32,304 bases of DNA from assembly GCA_913061105.1 (NCBI GenBank), contig CAJXVJ010000009.1:1-32304 (forward strand), in the 5' to 3' direction. The notes below the pieces were generated by a model that was not told the origin of the DNA, did not search any database, and saw only the letters and a list, made by a program, of their open reading frames with translations. A program made the translations under genes and the position numbers. Origin of the DNA: an uncultured Alcanivoracaceae bacterium. Its GTDB lineage: Bacteria > Pseudomonadota > Gammaproteobacteria > Xanthomonadales > Marinicellaceae. Every line of letters begins with the position of its first letter. Positions within the stretch are counted from its first letter, which is position 1. Below are positions 5,444-29,148 of this stretch, in pieces.

Positions 5444-6814
5444 TTACGGATTGATTGAATCAAAACTGTTCATAAAAATCAAGTCAATCGAATTAAAGTC
5501 AACACCTACCATATTAATTAAAGTGGCTAAATTGGCTTTAACAATCCCAGACCCTAATACAGGGTCTAAGTTTTCAGATAAATCATTAACCGTATGGTAT
5601 CCAAAATAAGTACCAATGTCAGGTTGATTAGAGGTAACAGCAGGGATTCCAGCATTTGAAAAGCTTAAAAAATCTGTACAACACATGTTTAGGCTGATTT
5701 GCCAATCGATATCTGAATACAATGCCCCATTGGCAGCAACAGTTTCTGCCAGAGTTTGATAGCTTGATGTATTGGTACCAGCAATAGCAACATTTCTGTC
5801 ATCCAATCTGTAACTAATCATGTCCATGTTTAGCATGGTTTTAACTTTGGAAATATCTCCATCATTGCTTAATTGAGTGACCACATCTTTTGAACCCAAT
5901 AATCCAGACTCTTCTTCAATAAAGCACATAAATAAAATTGAGGCATCTGTCTGGTACTGGCTGATGACATTGGCAACTTCTAAAACGCCCGAACATCCTG
6001 ATGCATTGTCTTCTGCTCCAGGTGACGGCAATGCATTGTTCCATGTTTGATTTCTAGAATCAAGATGGGCACCAACCACATACCAGTCATCTGGCCTGGT
6101 TGTGCCTTGTTTAAAACCTAAAACATTAGATCCCCTGTAATTCGCATGCAATGATACACGTGAAGTGACAAAACCCAAGTCCTCAAACTTTGTTTCTAAC
6201 CAATCACCTGCAATGACCAAATCAGCAGCTAACATGCGGTCCAAACTTGACAGATATTCTACTTGGCTAAACCACCGATCAGCATCGACTTTATCGATTA
6301 ATAATTGAACATCTGAATTGCCACGCAGTAGTTCCTGATTCTGCCTATTTGCGTATTGGTAGGATAAAACTTTATTCTTTGAAAACGGGCCGATTGAGTC
6401 ATGCCCATAGACTTGATTCTTATTAACAAAATTTTTCAAATCTATCAACTGTGAACTGTTGTTTGCAAATACAACATCTAATTGACTGTGCAGATGTTCA
6501 TCAAGGCCTGAATGATCACAATGTCCCAATGTTTGAAAGGCTAAATTATCGACATCAACGTCTTTAAGCGTGTTTAAAACTGTGACAGATTTAGATAGCT
6601 TATCCATTTGATCATTACCCACAGCAACAATCATTTTATCGCCCATTTCAACCCACCAATCAACGGTGCTATTGTTTTTGATTTCTAAAATTTTGTTTGG
6701 ACCAATGTTGTCGATATTAATAATGGTTAGATCTCTGATATCAGAGCTGTATGCTGTTCCAGATAAAAGTAACAAGCCCAATAATCTAAATGTATTTTGC
6801 ATATTAATTCTCAA
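5444..6814 (-). CDS. M28-family metallopeptidase, exported, with a degenerate C-terminal tail DLIFMNSFD
   Basis: Signal peptide; VVGAHLDSRN, GAEDNASGCSGVLEVA, FIEEESGLLGS, LNMDMIS and GYHTVND motifs of M28 aminopeptidases. Confidence 0.92.
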   Translation of the reverse strand: MRINMQNTFRLLGLLLLSGTAYSSDIRDLTIINIDNIGPNKILEIKNNSTVDWWVEMGDKMIVAVGNDQMDKLSKSVTVLNTLKDVDVDNLAFQTLGHCDHSGLDEHLHSQLDVVFANNSSQLIDLKNFVNKNQVYGHDSIGPFSKNKVLSYQYANRQNQELLRGNSDVQLLIDKVDADRWFSQVEYLSSLDRMLAADLVIAGDWLETKFEDLGFVTSRVSLHANYRGSNVLGFKQGTTRPDDWYVVGAHLDSRNQTWNNALPSPGAEDNASGCSGVLEVANVISQYQTDASILFMCFIEEESGLLGSKDVVTQLSNDGDISKVKTMLNMDMISYRLDDRNVAIAGTNTSSYQTLAETVAANGALYSDIDWQISLNMCCTDFLSFSNAGIPAVTSNQPDIGTYFGYHTVNDLSENLDPVLGSGIVKANLATLINMVGVDFNSIDLIFMNSFDSINP

Positions 6815-18442: not shown

Positions 18443-18990
18443 GTGCTCACCATTGGTGTCAGTTTGTTTCTTAATTTTTGTACAGCGCGGTAAATAGTCT
18501 GTTTACAGGCATTGTTGTTTATCTTTAATTGTTTAGATATTTCAGCTATTGAATAACCTTGCTGGTGTTTCAATGTAAAGGCCAATCTTTCAACATCGGT
18601 TAAACCGCTTAATGCAGATTGTAATTGCCTGTTTAAATCTAATTGATCTTCGTGGTTGATTTGCTGGTTGTGCTTTTCGCTGATGCTTGGATTCTGTTCG
18701 ATTGAATCTGTCTGCTTATGCTGTTTGGCTTTTCTCAGGTAATCTATTGATGTATTACTGGCTACTCTGAATAACCATGTAGAAAATTTAGCATTGGCCT
18801 TATATCTGGGCAACGCTTTATAAGCTTTTATAAACGTGTCTTGGGTAATGTCCTCAGCACAGGCTTTATTGGCAGCGTATCTAAAGGCCAATAAATTTAC
18901 AGCTTTCGAATAATGAATAACGAGACTGCGGAATGCCATCTTGTCGCCATTAATGGCCTGTGTGAGTATTTTGTCGTCTATTTCTTGCAT
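18439..18990 (-). CDS. ECF-family RNA polymerase sigma-70 factor
   Basis: Region 2 (AEDITQDTFIKAYKALPRYKANAKFSTWLFRVASNTSIDYLRK) and region 4 (LTDVERLAFTLKHQQGYSIAEISKQLKINNNACKQTIYRAVQKLR). Confidence 0.95.
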   Translation of the reverse strand: MQEIDDKILTQAINGDKMAFRSLVIHYSKAVNLLAFRYAANKACAEDITQDTFIKAYKALPRYKANAKFSTWLFRVASNTSIDYLRKAKQHKQTDSIEQNPSISEKHNQQINHEDQLDLNRQLQSALSGLTDVERLAFTLKHQQGYSIAEISKQLKINNNACKQTIYRAVQKLRNKLTPMVST

Positions 18991-22578: not shown

Positions 22579-25500
22579 TTATGAATCTAATAGTTTTTTA
22601 TTGAATTGATAATTACTAAAATTAACTTTATACAGTAAACTGTATAATACTGGTATAAAAATTAAAGTAATAACCGTGCCAAACAATAATCCGACCATAA
22701 TACTGACTGCCATGCCTTCCCACATTTCACCTCCACTTAAATAAAGAGGGATCAATCCCAATACAGTGGTAAATGTGGCTAACAGAATCGGTCGGAAACG
22801 TTGAAGACAAGCCATAACAATGGCATCATTTTGATTCAGCTCACTGCGTTCAATCCCAATTCTATCCAATAAAACAATGGCGTTATTAATGATAATTCCA
22901 AAAAGAGAAATGACTCCTAAAAATGGCATAAAACCAAAAGGTTCTTTAAATACAAGTAAACCAATTACCACGCCAATTAATCCTAATGGGATAGTCAGTA
23001 AAACCATTGTCATGTGTCTAAATGAATTAAATTGAATAATCAACAACAAGACTATGATAAAACCTGATAGTGGTAAGTAACTAATCACAGACCCCATACT
23101 TTCAGCCGATTGTTTGGCGTCTCCACCCAATTCATAAGTATAATTTTCTGGCCAATTTTCTTGCATCTCTTGCTGCAACCAAGGTGTTATTTCTTTAGTA
23201 ACTAATGAAGCATTACCAGCTGCAGTTAATTTGCTTGTCACATTAATTGTCCGTCTTAAATTCAGTCTTTTTATCTTTGAATACTGCCACTGAGGATTAA
23301 TTTCAGCCACTTGTAATAATGGTACACTTCTGCCTGATGATTGAGCATAAATATTTAAAGTTTCTAATGAAGCCAGGCTTTGTTGTTGATTTGAGTCACT
23401 GCGCATCATTATTGGTATGGTTTTATTGTCTTCTCTGTATTCTCCCGTTTTAAAACCATCTAATACTGTTTTCAATGATGTAGCAATGTCTTGACTAGAA
23501 ACACCTGCGGCTTGGGCTCTTGATTGGTCGATATTTATTAAAAACTTTTTACTTTTTGGGCCCCAATCATCTTTGATATTTTTTGTTCCAGGTATTTTTG
23601 ATAATTTGTTTTTAATGGATTCAGATATAAGTGCCAATTCATCAGGATTATCTCCTGATACTTTAATTTCAATTGGGACACCTCCGCCTCCACCAGCTAA
23701 TACGCTGACTTTTATTTCAGCATTGGGGAAATTTTCAAATGTAAATTTGTCAAGTATGGCTACCATATCATTATTGACATTAAAGGAGGATGTATTGATC
23801 AAGAGATGTGCATAACTAGAATCAGCCTCTTCCTGAGAATAACCTAAATCATAAGATTCTGGGCCTTTACCGATATATGAAGACCAGTCTACAATGCCTG
23901 ATTGACGGGTTTCATTAACTTTGAGTTTCTCATGCATAAATGATTCAATTGATGCAACGATGCTTTCAGTAGACTCAACTTTTGTTCCAGCAGGAAGGTT
24001 GACGTCAATGGTAATTAAATTTCTGTCACTGTCGGGAAAAAATAAAAACTGAATATAGCCAAATCCAAATAACGACATCACAAACATGGAAAAAATCAAA
24101 ATCATTACCTTAATTTTATTCACCAATGCTTTTAATATCACTATTCGGTAAAGCTCTTTAAGTTTTAAGATAATTCTATCTATAAGGCTTAATTTGGTTT
24201 TGGATACATCTATTTTCATAAAGAAATAACAAAATAGTGTAATGACAGACAAAGCAATTACCCATGAAGACAACAATGCAATGGTGATGACAACAAAAAT
24301 TGGGCCAACTATGTCTCCCATTGATGTTGGCGACATATAAAATGCTAAAAATGCTGCCGATGTAGTCAGTGTAGAGATGAGTAATGGCATAAACAATTCA
24401 GAAACGGCTGCAATCGCAGCATTTTTTGCCTTAATGCCAGATTCCATCTTAACCATGATTGTTTCAGCCACTACAATGGCATTATCAACTAGCATACCTA
24501 ACGCCATAATCAAGGCGGCCAATGTCACTTGGTTTAACCCTATATCAATAATACCCATTATCATAAGTGTCATAATTGTTACTATCGGAATAAGGCTGGC
24601 AATGATAAGGCCAGTCCTAAAACCTAAGAAAAAGAGCATTACCAGTAATACAATAGAGATGGATTGGATTAAGTTAACCACAAAATTATCAATCTTATTT
24701 TCAATATAAGTATCTAAAGATGACACCCTGGTTAATTCTAAACCAACTGGTAACTTTGACTGCCAATATTTAATTCTCTCATCAACTTTGACACCTAGCT
24801 CGATAACATTGGCCTCTTTTTTTAAGTTGATATGCAATGAAACAGCGGTCCGTCCATTGAATTTAACAATCTGTACTGGCGGATCTATATAGGCTTTTCT
24901 TACGGTTGTGATATCACCCAGCTCAACTAATTGGGTGCCACCATTGCCAACAGGAATTAGCATTTGACTGATGTCTTTAACAGAATTGAAATTTCCTGTT
25001 GGCTCTAAGATGACCCGTTCTTCACCTAAATTAATTTCCCCACCTGAACTCAATATATTTGTCGATGTAATGATGTTCTTTAGCATATTAGACGTTAGGC
25101 CGTATTCATTAAGTTTGGCATTGTCAAATTCAACAAAAACCCGTTCTTCTTGTAATCCACCCAAAGAAACTTTGGCAGCCTCAGGGATTTTAATCAAATC
25201 ATCTCTGATATCATCAGCATAGTCTTTCATCTGTGCATAACTAAACCCATCAGAAGTCAGCCCAACTACAATACCATAAACATCTCCAATGCCATCATCA
25301 TTAAGATCGGGCACCACATTCTGAGGTAAGCCCTTTATGTTATCGATTTTCCTTCTTAATCTATCCCACACAGCTTGTAGGTCTTTACTATCAACTTCAT
25401 CTTTTAAGGCAACAGAAACCACTGATAATCCAGTTCTAGAGGTACTGGTCACATCTTTTAGTTCAGGTAATTCTTGAGCCAATTTTTCGATTTTATCAGT

Positions 25501-25689
25501 AACCAACTGTTCTACTCGCTCAGGGCTTGCTCCTGGAAACTCAGAGACAATCGATGCCACTCGGATTGTGAATGGAGGCATGCTATCCCTAGACAAAGCA
25601 GAATACATAGCCAAACCCATCAAAATAATACTGCCCAGAACAACCAAAGTGATTCTGTTTTTTTCTATGGATATTTTTGCAATATTCAT
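22579..25689 (-). CDS. RND efflux permease (AcrB-like superfamily)
   Basis: 1036 aa; FPGASPERVEQLVTDKIE, ALGMLVDNAIVVAETI, GIIINNAIVLLDRI; two six-TM blocks. Confidence 0.95.
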   Translation of the reverse strand: MNIAKISIEKNRITLVVLGSIILMGLAMYSALSRDSMPPFTIRVASIVSEFPGASPERVEQLVTDKIEKLAQELPELKDVTSTSRTGLSVVSVALKDEVDSKDLQAVWDRLRRKIDNIKGLPQNVVPDLNDDGIGDVYGIVVGLTSDGFSYAQMKDYADDIRDDLIKIPEAAKVSLGGLQEERVFVEFDNAKLNEYGLTSNMLKNIITSTNILSSGGEINLGEERVILEPTGNFNSVKDISQMLIPVGNGGTQLVELGDITTVRKAYIDPPVQIVKFNGRTAVSLHINLKKEANVIELGVKVDERIKYWQSKLPVGLELTRVSSLDTYIENKIDNFVVNLIQSISIVLLVMLFFLGFRTGLIIASLIPIVTIMTLMIMGIIDIGLNQVTLAALIMALGMLVDNAIVVAETIMVKMESGIKAKNAAIAAVSELFMPLLISTLTTSAAFLAFYMSPTSMGDIVGPIFVVITIALLSSWVIALSVITLFCYFFMKIDVSKTKLSLIDRIILKLKELYRIVILKALVNKIKVMILIFSMFVMSLFGFGYIQFLFFPDSDRNLITIDVNLPAGTKVESTESIVASIESFMHEKLKVNETRQSGIVDWSSYIGKGPESYDLGYSQEEADSSYAHLLINTSSFNVNNDMVAILDKFTFENFPNAEIKVSVLAGGGGGVPIEIKVSGDNPDELALISESIKNKLSKIPGTKNIKDDWGPKSKKFLINIDQSRAQAAGVSSQDIATSLKTVLDGFKTGEYREDNKTIPIMMRSDSNQQQSLASLETLNIYAQSSGRSVPLLQVAEINPQWQYSKIKRLNLRRTINVTSKLTAAGNASLVTKEITPWLQQEMQENWPENYTYELGGDAKQSAESMGSVISYLPLSGFIIVLLLIIQFNSFRHMTMVLLTIPLGLIGVVIGLLVFKEPFGFMPFLGVISLFGIIINNAIVLLDRIGIERSELNQNDAIVMACLQRFRPILLATFTTVLGLIPLYLSGGEMWEGMAVSIMVGLLFGTVITLIFIPVLYSLLYKVNFSNYQFNKKLLDS

Positions 25690-26792
25690 TAGTTTGATTC
25701 TTGCTTAATTAAGACTTCTTGGCCGTTCAAAAGGGTCTGCAAGCCAGCTGTTGCAATCAATTGCCCGCTTTTCAATCCTGAAACAACCTCAAATCCTTCC
25801 GAAGTGAGTTTACCGATTTGTATGGTTTGTTTATTTGCAATGGCTGTCTCGCCATTTTGGTTTAATAAAAAGACAAACCTTCCATTTGAATCCTCTCCAA
25901 CTGCAATAGACGGGACAACTAAAAATTTATCATTAGGTTGTGACTCGGAATCTTTAAAATTAAATGTGACATTTGCCGCCATGCCAGATTTAATTTCAGA
26001 ACTTGCATCCTCTACATCAATCGTAATGGGATAGGTAGCAGTATTGATATCCAATGAAGGAGAGACTTCAGTCACAACGCCCTTAAAATCTTTATTATTG
26101 AGAGAAGAAAAAGTCACCTGCACTGGCATGTTTAATTTAACATTGTTTATCACGCTTTCAGGTAATCCCAAACTTATATTCATGTGAGATCCTGAGTTTA
26201 ATGTTGCAATTATTTGACCAGAACTGATATTTTCATTGAGTTCTACATTAACTGCAGAAATCTCTCCATCAGATGGTGCATATAAATAACCATAATTTAT
26301 CTGGTCTTGTTGAATATCAACATTCCTCATTGCAGAGTTATAGTTTTGCTGTGCATTTCTTGCTGCATCTTTAGCGGCTTCTAAATCGCTCAATGACGAC
26401 CCACCTTTTTCATATAAGGCTTTAATTCTATTCAAGTTGAGTTTTGTTGTGTTCATTTTAGATTCTGAACTGTTCTTTGATGAAATTGAGTTTTCATAAT
26501 TTAGCCTGGCTTGAACATTGTCTAATTTAGCCAATAGATCACCCTTGTTAACTTTTTGACCCAATTTAATGTTTAATTCAGATAATACTCCATTGCTTCT
26601 AAAACTTAATTTAACCACTTGGTCGGTTTTTGAAGTTCCGCTAAATACGCGTACTTTATCTCCACCTGAAAATTCGACTTTGTGGTACTTAACAGGTCGT
26701 ACCAATTTTTCTTCAGAGACTTCTTCTTCACCACAAGAAACCAATAAAAAGAGCATTGTGCTTATTATCAAAATTTTTAAAGTTATATTCAT
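25689..26792 (-). CDS. RND efflux periplasmic adaptor (MFP) lipoprotein
   Basis: Lipobox (STMLFLLVSCGEE), GKVxKGxLLAKLD-type lipoyl half (LGQKVNKGDLLAKLDNVQARL), hairpin and barrel domains. TAATG overlap with the permease. Confidence 0.93.
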   Translation of the reverse strand: MNITLKILIISTMLFLLVSCGEEEVSEEKLVRPVKYHKVEFSGGDKVRVFSGTSKTDQVVKLSFRSNGVLSELNIKLGQKVNKGDLLAKLDNVQARLNYENSISSKNSSESKMNTTKLNLNRIKALYEKGGSSLSDLEAAKDAARNAQQNYNSAMRNVDIQQDQINYGYLYAPSDGEISAVNVELNENISSGQIIATLNSGSHMNISLGLPESVINNVKLNMPVQVTFSSLNNKDFKGVVTEVSPSLDINTATYPITIDVEDASSEIKSGMAANVTFNFKDSESQPNDKFLVVPSIAVGEDSNGRFVFLLNQNGETAIANKQTIQIGKLTSEGFEVVSGLKSGQLIATAGLQTLLNGQEVLIKQESN

Positions 26793-26808
26793 GTTATCGA
26801 TTTTCCTG

Positions 26809-29148
26809 TCATTGTTTATTCAAAAATGTAAAAAAGTCTTTTCTAAATTGTTCATTCTCTTGTTTTGTATTTAAAAAGAAGTAATATCCAAGTGATCTTT
26901 CAAGCTGAAGTGAAGTAATCAAAAAATTGTATATCGCATTAGATTTTGCCAATTGGGAATTAATGTAATTATTTTGAGCATCAATTAATTGTACAATATT
27001 AACCGCACCATTTGCATAGGATGCTTTGGTTAATTCTAGTGATTCTTTTGCTGTTTGTTCGGATACTTCAGAAAGGTTAATATTTGACATTTCATTTATC
27101 AACCTTAATACTCCAGTCCTAATATTTACATCAATTAACTGTTCTGTATTTTGTTTTGAAATATCTAATTGCTCTTGCTTAATAATCGCAGTTTGCCTGT
27201 TAGTACTAAATTGGTTTTTATTAAATAACGGAACAGAAAATGACAGTGCAACATTATAGTTATCATCTAAAAATGAGCTGCCTGGTGGAGGCTGACTACC
27301 TGTTCCACTGCGGTTAAATGTATTGTTATACTGTCCTTGCAATGAAATTGTTGGCAAATACCTATTGCGTCCATTGAGTTCGATTTCTTTTTCTACTGCT
27401 TGATTGTTATATTTGATGGCTTTTAGTTCTGGGGCATTTAATTTGGCTTTAGCAATCGCAAACTCAATAAAAGGGATTCTCAATTCAGGATCATCTAGCA
27501 GTTCTGTCAATAAATTATAGTTATAGTCTTCAAACACACCTTTATCAAGTTTAACATCTTCAATATCAATTTCCTGATCAGGCGCATTGTTGAGCAATTG
27601 GTTCAAGGAAATATAAGATTGTTCTAATTGATTTGCCGCTTCTACCATGACTTGAGTATTTTGAGCTTTAGCACTTAAAAAACGCAATGAATCAGATTTT
27701 CCTGACTGACCGATTTCATAACTCTGTTGTGCCAGTTTAAGGTTGTCTTTTGTTAATTTTAAGTTGAGTAATTGAATCTGAGCATTAGTTTTCAATATTA
27801 ACACCGTGAAATAAGCGTTTACGGCATCAAAGATTGTATCTAATTGTTGTGCACTAAAATTTTCTTTTTGGGCTTTTATCAAACTTTTTTGTATGGCAAT
27901 TTCTGAATTGGCTGCATTTGAATAGAGGGTTTGATTAACGTTTAAATTCCCTGAGCTAGAAAATTCGGGATTACTGCCATTACTTAACTCGGCTAAATCA
28001 GGATCAATATATGCGCCGGTGACAGAAGCTGAAACTGTTGGTTTATAATTGTTTTTAGCAGATTTTAAATTCTGCTGGCTTAAATCAACATCAAGGCTTG
28101 ATATTTTTAAATTCAAGTTCTTTGACAATACTTGATTGATAACTTCAACTAAGTTCATCTTATCTTGTGAAAGAATATTGTTAAAATCACCAACGAAATC
28201 TGTGTCAGCTATTAAGCTGTATTTAATAGGCACACCTATGGCTTCTGCGGTATTGTAGTTAATTGTTAGTTGAGAAGTATAATCAATAAAAACCGGCATA
28301 TCAGCTAATGGAGTGCCTAATATATAAGAATCAACCGTAAGCGCTATTCTTCTAAAAAACTGTTCAATGTCACCTTCTGCCTTATGGCTAGCCATAATCC
28401 CAGCTTTAACCTGGTTAATGCTATTAAGTGTAAAAGACGGTATTTTCTTTTCGATTAACTTTATAGCCAGACGTTTAACATTATCTTCAGTTAAGAAAAA
28501 ACCACCTGCAAGATAAATCGCATCAATACCATTTAGTGCATTAATTATGTCTTCAACTGTTTCGAAAGGAATAATTTTATAACTTGAATTGATGCCTTTT
28601 ACTGCTTCATCAAGCACATCATTTAAGTTTAAAAACTCAACGATACCTTGATCGACAACGATTCCTACATTTTTAAAATGGGTCAATTGTTTTAATTTGG
28701 CCAAATCCTCTTTATACGATTCTGACTCAATCAAATAAGTAAAATTCTTAATCCCTGAGGTTTTTTTTGTTATATCCAAGTCATTGTAGTCTTGGTTAAT
28801 CGCACCAAATAATATGGTTGGTTTTTTGTGTAGTTTTTGTTTACTAACAACTTCACTGGTAATAACTCCAAATGCAATAACCATATCAATGTCATTATTG
28901 ATCATTTTTTGATATTGTTCAGCAGCCACTTTTATATCAAAATTATTGACATAAAATCCATTTTCTGGGAAATGAATACTGGCATCCTCACCAACGACGG
29001 CTTTTATTTGACTTTTTAACCGCTCCAATAAGACTGATGTCTTGTTTGAATGGTTATCTAACATTATTCCAATGTTATAGGATGATTTTGAATGCACCAA
29101 ACTTAATGGCAATGAAAAAAGAAGAAATATTAGAATTTTTTTATACAT
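26809..29148 (-). CDS. Fusion protein: N-terminal ABC substrate-binding-like domain (PF04392-type) plus C-terminal TolC-family outer-membrane efflux channel
   Basis: Residues ~20-318 read as an ABC_sub_bind fold ending AGIMASHKAEGDIEQFFRRIALTVDSYILGTPLADMPVFIDYTSQLTINYNTAEAIGVPI. Residues ~330-779 have TolC repeats (DAVNAYFTVLILKTNAQIQLLNLKLTKDNLKLAQQSYEIGQSG; ...LTKASYANGAVNIVQLIDAQNNYINSQLAKSNAIYNFLITSLQLERSLG). Confidence 0.88.
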   Translation of the reverse strand: MYKKILIFLLFSLPLSLVHSKSSYNIGIMLDNHSNKTSVLLERLKSQIKAVVGEDASIHFPENGFYVNNFDIKVAAEQYQKMINNDIDMVIAFGVITSEVVSKQKLHKKPTILFGAINQDYNDLDITKKTSGIKNFTYLIESESYKEDLAKLKQLTHFKNVGIVVDQGIVEFLNLNDVLDEAVKGINSSYKIIPFETVEDIINALNGIDAIYLAGGFFLTEDNVKRLAIKLIEKKIPSFTLNSINQVKAGIMASHKAEGDIEQFFRRIALTVDSYILGTPLADMPVFIDYTSQLTINYNTAEAIGVPIKYSLIADTDFVGDFNNILSQDKMNLVEVINQVLSKNLNLKISSLDVDLSQQNLKSAKNNYKPTVSASVTGAYIDPDLAELSNGSNPEFSSSGNLNVNQTLYSNAANSEIAIQKSLIKAQKENFSAQQLDTIFDAVNAYFTVLILKTNAQIQLLNLKLTKDNLKLAQQSYEIGQSGKSDSLRFLSAKAQNTQVMVEAANQLEQSYISLNQLLNNAPDQEIDIEDVKLDKGVFEDYNYNLLTELLDDPELRIPFIEFAIAKAKLNAPELKAIKYNNQAVEKEIELNGRNRYLPTISLQGQYNNTFNRSGTGSQPPPGSSFLDDNYNVALSFSVPLFNKNQFSTNRQTAIIKQEQLDISKQNTEQLIDVNIRTGVLRLINEMSNINLSEVSEQTAKESLELTKASYANGAVNIVQLIDAQNNYINSQLAKSNAIYNFLITSLQLERSLGYYFFLNTKQENEQFRKDFFTFLNKQ

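Follow-up and report, generated by a model that had tools for sequence, protein, structure and literature searches.

Does the ORF on the minus strand near the right-hand end of the window (the whole stretch of 32,304 nucleotides that was analysed) encode one protein in which a periplasmic binding-protein (SBP) domain precedes a TolC-type outer-membrane factor (OMF), and what would such a domain do on an exit duct? The original prediction described a single 779-aa ORF that switches from an ABC_sub_bind-like domain to a full TolC-family sequence at residue 320–330, near position 28180. We examined the two halves of this protein, its operon, its relatives in other genomes and its history, and weighed the roles that the additional domain might have.

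The two halves of the fusion protein

The frame is uninterrupted on the minus strand from the ATG at 29148 to the stop at 26809-26811, and stops are abundant on the plus strand over 26809-29148. It opens with the sequence MYKKILIFLLFSLPLSLVHS, the predicted signal peptide. The junction between the halves falls at about residues 321–327 (~28170-28185), where the switch had been placed, and the frame, the OEP matches and the predicted folds bear out the combination of an SBP-fold domain with a full TolC sequence (Table 1).

Table 1. Coordinates of the fusion gene, its parts and its neighbors in the window.
Feature	Position	Strand	Basis
SBP-OMF fusion ORF, 779 aa	26809..29148	minus	open frame, OEP/TolC matches, predicted fold of both halves
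Predicted Sec signal peptide, ~residues 1-22, without lipobox cysteine	29083..29148	minus	reading of the translation, inference
Putative periplasmic-binding-protein domain, ABC_sub_bind superfamily, ~residues 22-321	28185..29085	minus	relatives, profile matches, AlphaFold/Foldseek
TolC-family outer-membrane-factor part, ~residues 327-779; no long linker before it	26812..28170	minus	Pfam, NCBIfam, PDB sequence search, fold
Periplasmic adaptor, MFP (RND_mfp TIGR01730)	25689..26792	minus	Pfam, NCBIfam
RND permease (ACR_tran), 1036 aa; frame starts where the adaptor gene ends	22579..25689	minus	Pfam, NCBIfam
Terminator-like hairpin between ssb and the fusion gene	29175..29200	minus	consensus match only

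A Pfam search of the window protein matched OEP (PF02321) from residue 335 (E 3.6e-48), the NCBIfam match to type_I_sec_TolC started at residue 330, and both sources concurred with a PDB sequence search on a TolC-type OMF at residues ~328-757. This half has two OEP repeats, a predicted fold of helical barrel plus beta-barrel, and a genetic link to an adaptor and an inner-membrane pump. It resembles E. coli TolC, OprM and CusC in possessing the full OMF part with its TolC profile and fold matches, and in its association with an MFP and an RND or ABC pump, as is usual in the OEP/TolC family. Canonical members, however, begin directly at the duct, lipid-anchored or not, whereas here 300 binding-protein residues come before it; the original prediction was correct that canonical TolC proteins have no such domain. 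The AlphaFold model of the full protein (pLDDT 86.7, pTM 0.73, from an input alignment of only 27 sequences) was compared with known structures by Foldseek: one half matched TolC (E 5e-19) and the other CD0873, 3LFT and 3LKV (1.7e-11 and weaker).

The assignment of the N-terminal half as ABC_sub_bind (PF04392) could not be confirmed by Pfam alone, since the search of the window protein missed this family even at E<0.1 and gave no Pfam match of any kind in the first 320 residues; NCBIfam also missed the N-terminal domain. It was upheld by fused relatives, profiles and structure. PF04392 was matched by 4 of 27 fused relatives at E<0.01, and the two that we checked exceed the cut-off (e.g. 6e-8, 1e-9). 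A profile of 25 N-domain sequences matched VC_1101 (3LKV, 3.4e-8) and CD0873 (6HNI, 0.0012), and SP1069 (3LFT) more weakly. In the PDB, the N-domain modeled on its own (AlphaFold pLDDT 87.6) matched 6HNJ, 3LFT, 6HNI and 3LKV best (Foldseek, 9.7e-15 and weaker). The predicted structure of the N-terminal ~300 residues is thus closest to the solved type-I SBPs, and on these combined grounds the domain is assigned to the type-I periplasmic binding proteins of the ABC_sub_bind superfamily.

The similarity of fold and profile to VC_1101, CD0873 and SP1069 (TrpX) spans most of the fused domain, yet the latter is only 14-17% identical to these proteins, has its own signature residues and is tethered to an exporter duct rather than to an importer. 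Compared with 20 stand-alone SBPs, the signature of the fused domain comprises D31 (65/67 sequences), K109 (63/67), D148 (59/67), R266 (67/67), R267 (63/67) and L270 (66/67). VC_1101, CD0873 and SP1069 were crystallized with tyrosine, phenylalanine or tryptophan (PMC6816091). By our own reading of the alignment, the positions that select the side chain in these three proteins are not conserved in the fused domain, and the ligand of the solved relatives cannot therefore be transferred to it; amino-acid-like ligands, suggested by analogy with them, would be a guess. The predicted cleft loops, with cleft positions guessed from secondary structure, were no more conserved than the remainder of the domain (p 0.48 and 0.65), hence they give no sequence sign of a single conserved ligand. 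No PF04392 match above threshold, and so no importer SBP of the ABC_sub_bind family, was seen in the host genome, and the fusion operon contains no ABC importer genes.

Operon, distribution and partner pumps

In the direction of reading, the order is ssb (29759-29226), the hairpin, the fusion gene, the MFP, the RND permease and an acetyltransferase-like gene (22555-21965, its family judged by eye), with spacings of 16, -1 and 23 bases from the fusion gene onward. The fusion gene had been described as first in a same-strand series with an MFP and an RND permease, and so it is, all on the minus strand, which had not been stated. Given that this hairpin separates it from ssb, the fusion gene is probably the start of the operon; as only ~26 bases separate the hairpin stem from the ATG, the promoter would overlap the hairpin, or transcription would read through it. 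OMF, MFP and RND permease, the three parts of an RND tripartite pump, are thereby encoded in one operon. As regards substrate class (drug, metal), the permease matched named NCBIfam pump models only far below their curated cut-offs. Comparison of the fused loci revealed no conserved upstream genes hinting at a substrate, and the window has no riboswitch or other RNA element.

Several further features of the window are of note. The C-termini of secreted-looking proteins at 5444-6814, 10858-12186, 14112-14840 and 29909-31690 end in or near (I/L)F-x-(N/S)-(G/S)-F-(E/D). In the host genome, 77 instances of a stop-anchored DNA pattern for this end were counted, compared to 8 of the reversed control; the motif would be a C-terminal tag used genome-wide, perhaps for sorting or secretion. 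A 126-aa frame at 79-459, with a TTG start and KKT/VKK repeats, consists nearly entirely of K, T, N, V, G and R and might encode a basic protein that binds DNA, unless the frame is spurious. Sigma-factor-like, anti-sigma-like membrane and two repeat-rich (HEAT-like) proteins, as judged by eye, form one same-strand series at 14904-18990.

The fused architecture recurs in ~79 distinct loci, complete plasmid records included, that span at least four phyla, with hosts among Gammaproteobacteria-like genomes, Bacteroidota, Campylobacterota and Fusobacteriota, and the spacing of the SBP-OMF junction is conserved across loci. The fragmentation of the host assembly (371 contigs) might suggest an assembly or annotation artefact that fused two genes, but the same junction in this many loci of unrelated genomes refutes this account, whose probability is negligible. 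The two-domain ORF, present in dozens of independent genomes, is real, the result of neither chance nor misassembly.

Within the family of the window, the fusion was found in 5 of 33 genomes, and it is present in further families of the same order and class. A family-spread sample of the class gave an N-domain match in 26 of 387 genomes, 21 of them (the window included) with a full-length fused frame. The sample of the phylum, weighted to common genera, yielded besides the window almost only stand-alone-sized SBP frames, indicating that the fusion is scattered rather than common in this phylum. Among the Flavobacteriaceae, ~31 of 201 genomes have the fusion, the weakest of the 38 matches being stand-alone or broken; the full-length form was present in 14 of 300 genomes of the Bacteroidota sample (E<1e-158), well separated from OMFs devoid of the domain (E>=8e-47). 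A Sulfuricurvum plasmid carries the fusion under the annotation 'ABC transporter substrate binding protein', and a Cetobacterium plasmid carries it as 'TolC family protein', with a weak N-domain match. Longer Bacteroidota frames (890-955 aa) were considered for extra domains; the excess precedes the N-domain match and is most likely over-extension of the start codon. At one locus (L043:773-2670), an SBP domain of the fused type (414 aa frame) abuts a frame in which just the C-terminal fifth of an RND permease is matched; this locus lacks the OMF and the remainder of the pump, perhaps by deletion or misassembly.

Pump partners were scored in the ~73 fused loci with readable flanks. The same architecture had been proposed as a search target beside RND genes, and an MFP and an RND permease adjoin the fused gene in ~60 loci: the window, L002-L012, L031-L037, 9 of 20 loci of the class, 20 from Flavobacteriaceae, 11 of 12 from other Bacteroidota, and Cetobacterium. 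A few of these show the adaptor only, as the contig or fetched stretch stops there. In 10 loci (nine of the class, and Sulfuricurvum), the neighbors are an HlyD, an RbbA-like ATPase/permease and an ABC-2 permease, the last identified from Pfam and record annotation. Neither pump type is beside the fused gene in three loci (L101, L106 and L187). The RND-operon setting of the original prediction therefore holds for the window and the ~60 loci, but not exclusively, and the 10 loci with an unrelated exporter rule out an RND-specific fusion. Since the same duct occurs with either exporter, the SBP domain follows the duct and not the pump. The ABC-type loci have two gene orders, with the fusion gene first (L114 (G370), L095) or last (L100, L102, L103, L105, L107, L108, L110, L111), hinting at separate recruitment. 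The tree requires two changes of pump type at the fewest, a provisional figure, as a single clade of all ABC-type loci was not rejected (p 0.15).

Fusion history and transfer across phyla

The main clades agree between the trees of the N-domain and the C-domain. In a quick tree, the fused OMFs lay on one side of a branch (SH-aLRT 99) from 21 unfused OMFs, including the closest ones of Bacteroidota. A single old fusion, retained since, is the likely history on these phylogenies; it fits and is unproven, as the outgroup was restricted and N-domain searches had supplied most of the members.

The clade of the window lies inside or beside that of the Flavobacteriaceae, to which its OMF is ~56% and its RND permease 73% identical. 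In contrast, members of the window's order from outside its family have OMFs only ~27% identical to that of the window. The 16S of the window's family, taken from a genome of the same genus as none was recovered from the assembly of the window, is ~83% identical to that of E. coli and 76% to that of a Flavobacteriaceae genome. The operon is far closer to Flavobacteriaceae than to the window's own order, and 16S together with gene content indicates a gammaproteobacterial host; we conclude that the OMF-MFP-RND operon (22579-29148), common to the window's family and Flavobacteriaceae, was transferred whole across phyla. Transfer into the window's family is the likely direction, not a proven one, since monophyly of Flavobacteriaceae to the exclusion of this family was not rejected (AU p 0.25).

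Possible roles of the binding-protein domain

OMFs are trimeric ducts that are opened by the adaptor. Their N-termini follow the exterior of the duct in the stretch from the equatorial domain up to the outer membrane, a site taken by a lipid anchor or by YbjP (PMC13082787). The fusion protein would accordingly be a trimeric exit duct of the TolC type that serves the co-encoded MFP-RND pump, with one type-I binding-protein domain per protomer. Once exported, the SBP domains would hang in the periplasm as a collar outside the duct, in the zone from the equatorial ring to the outer membrane, as judged from other OMFs. We tentatively favor a role for the domain as a ligand-responsive modulator, at a confidence that stops short of calling it probable: the clamshell, open or closed depending on ligand, would act on the duct itself and bias its assembly or opening. 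Because the domain is retained with the duct even where the partner pump differs, its function probably lies with the duct, and hand-over of cargo to the pump would be less likely. The broader proposal that the whole subclass is ligand-gated, such that a small periplasmic molecule bound to the collar would open or close the duct or license its assembly with either pump, is unlikely, though worth consideration.

The SBP fold could also have been kept without ligand binding, as a structural collar that anchors, folds or stabilizes the duct where it meets the outer membrane or the peptidoglycan and, as part of this reading, replaces the OprM-type lipid anchor or the lipoprotein YbjP that E. coli TolC binds. 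The lack of a lipobox cysteine in the window protein, the cleft loops that are not preferentially conserved, the retention of the domain beside two unrelated pump classes and the occupation of that TolC site by YbjP all agree with this possibility. Yet an anchor needs no two-lobe domain of 300 residues, and the entire fold is kept with subfamily-specific invariant residues, among them D31, which follows the first strand at a site that faces the ligand in SBPs (as far as its position can be placed). We consider it possible, if somewhat doubtful; between a ligand-responsive and a purely structural collar the data favor neither strongly. Either a ligand-responsive or an assembly/anchoring collar near the outer membrane appears more likely than capture of the export substrate in the periplasm for feeding to the pump, the first idea of the original prediction. 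RND pumps can draw cargo from the periplasm, and the SBP fold would suit such capture, but the same domain family also serves ABC-2 exporters. Furthermore, the OMF N-terminus lies outside a sealed duct, on the side close to the outer membrane (PMC13082787), distant from the RND/MFP entry and from the loading site of RND or ABC pumps, making capture improbable and the least likely of the functions that had been offered. Gating of the pump, the other function offered, may apply. Separation of the halves after export, giving a normal TolC duct and an independent periplasmic binding protein for import or sensing, would be in line with the order of signal peptide and SBP, the direct junction and the existence of stand-alone SBPs in the superfamily. 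It is very unlikely in view of the conserved junction spacing, the absence of a linker or known cleavage site, and the lack of an ABC_sub_bind match elsewhere in the host genome.

OMFs and SBPs are textbook families. In the open-access publications searched, we found their fusion neither described as a conserved subclass nor well characterized as a family, although database entries with this architecture are common and bear varied names. Among OMFs with an added domain, the closest parallel is Bucl8 of Burkholderia, likewise a pump-operon OMF with a non-duct extension; that region is extracellular and collagen-like (PMC7682875), whereas the one described here is N-terminal, of SBP fold and presumably periplasmic. 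YbjP seats a periplasmic domain at the level proposed for the SBP collar, between the membrane and the equatorial ring of TolC, but it is a separate, unfused lipoprotein of the DUF3828 family (PMC13082787). The prevailing view holds OMFs to be passive, interchangeable ducts that are opened by their adaptors. That a widespread clade keeps a binding-protein domain while its pump partner switches between RND and ABC types points to a duct that may itself be regulated or may sense something, and the fusion offers a single-gene, directly testable case.
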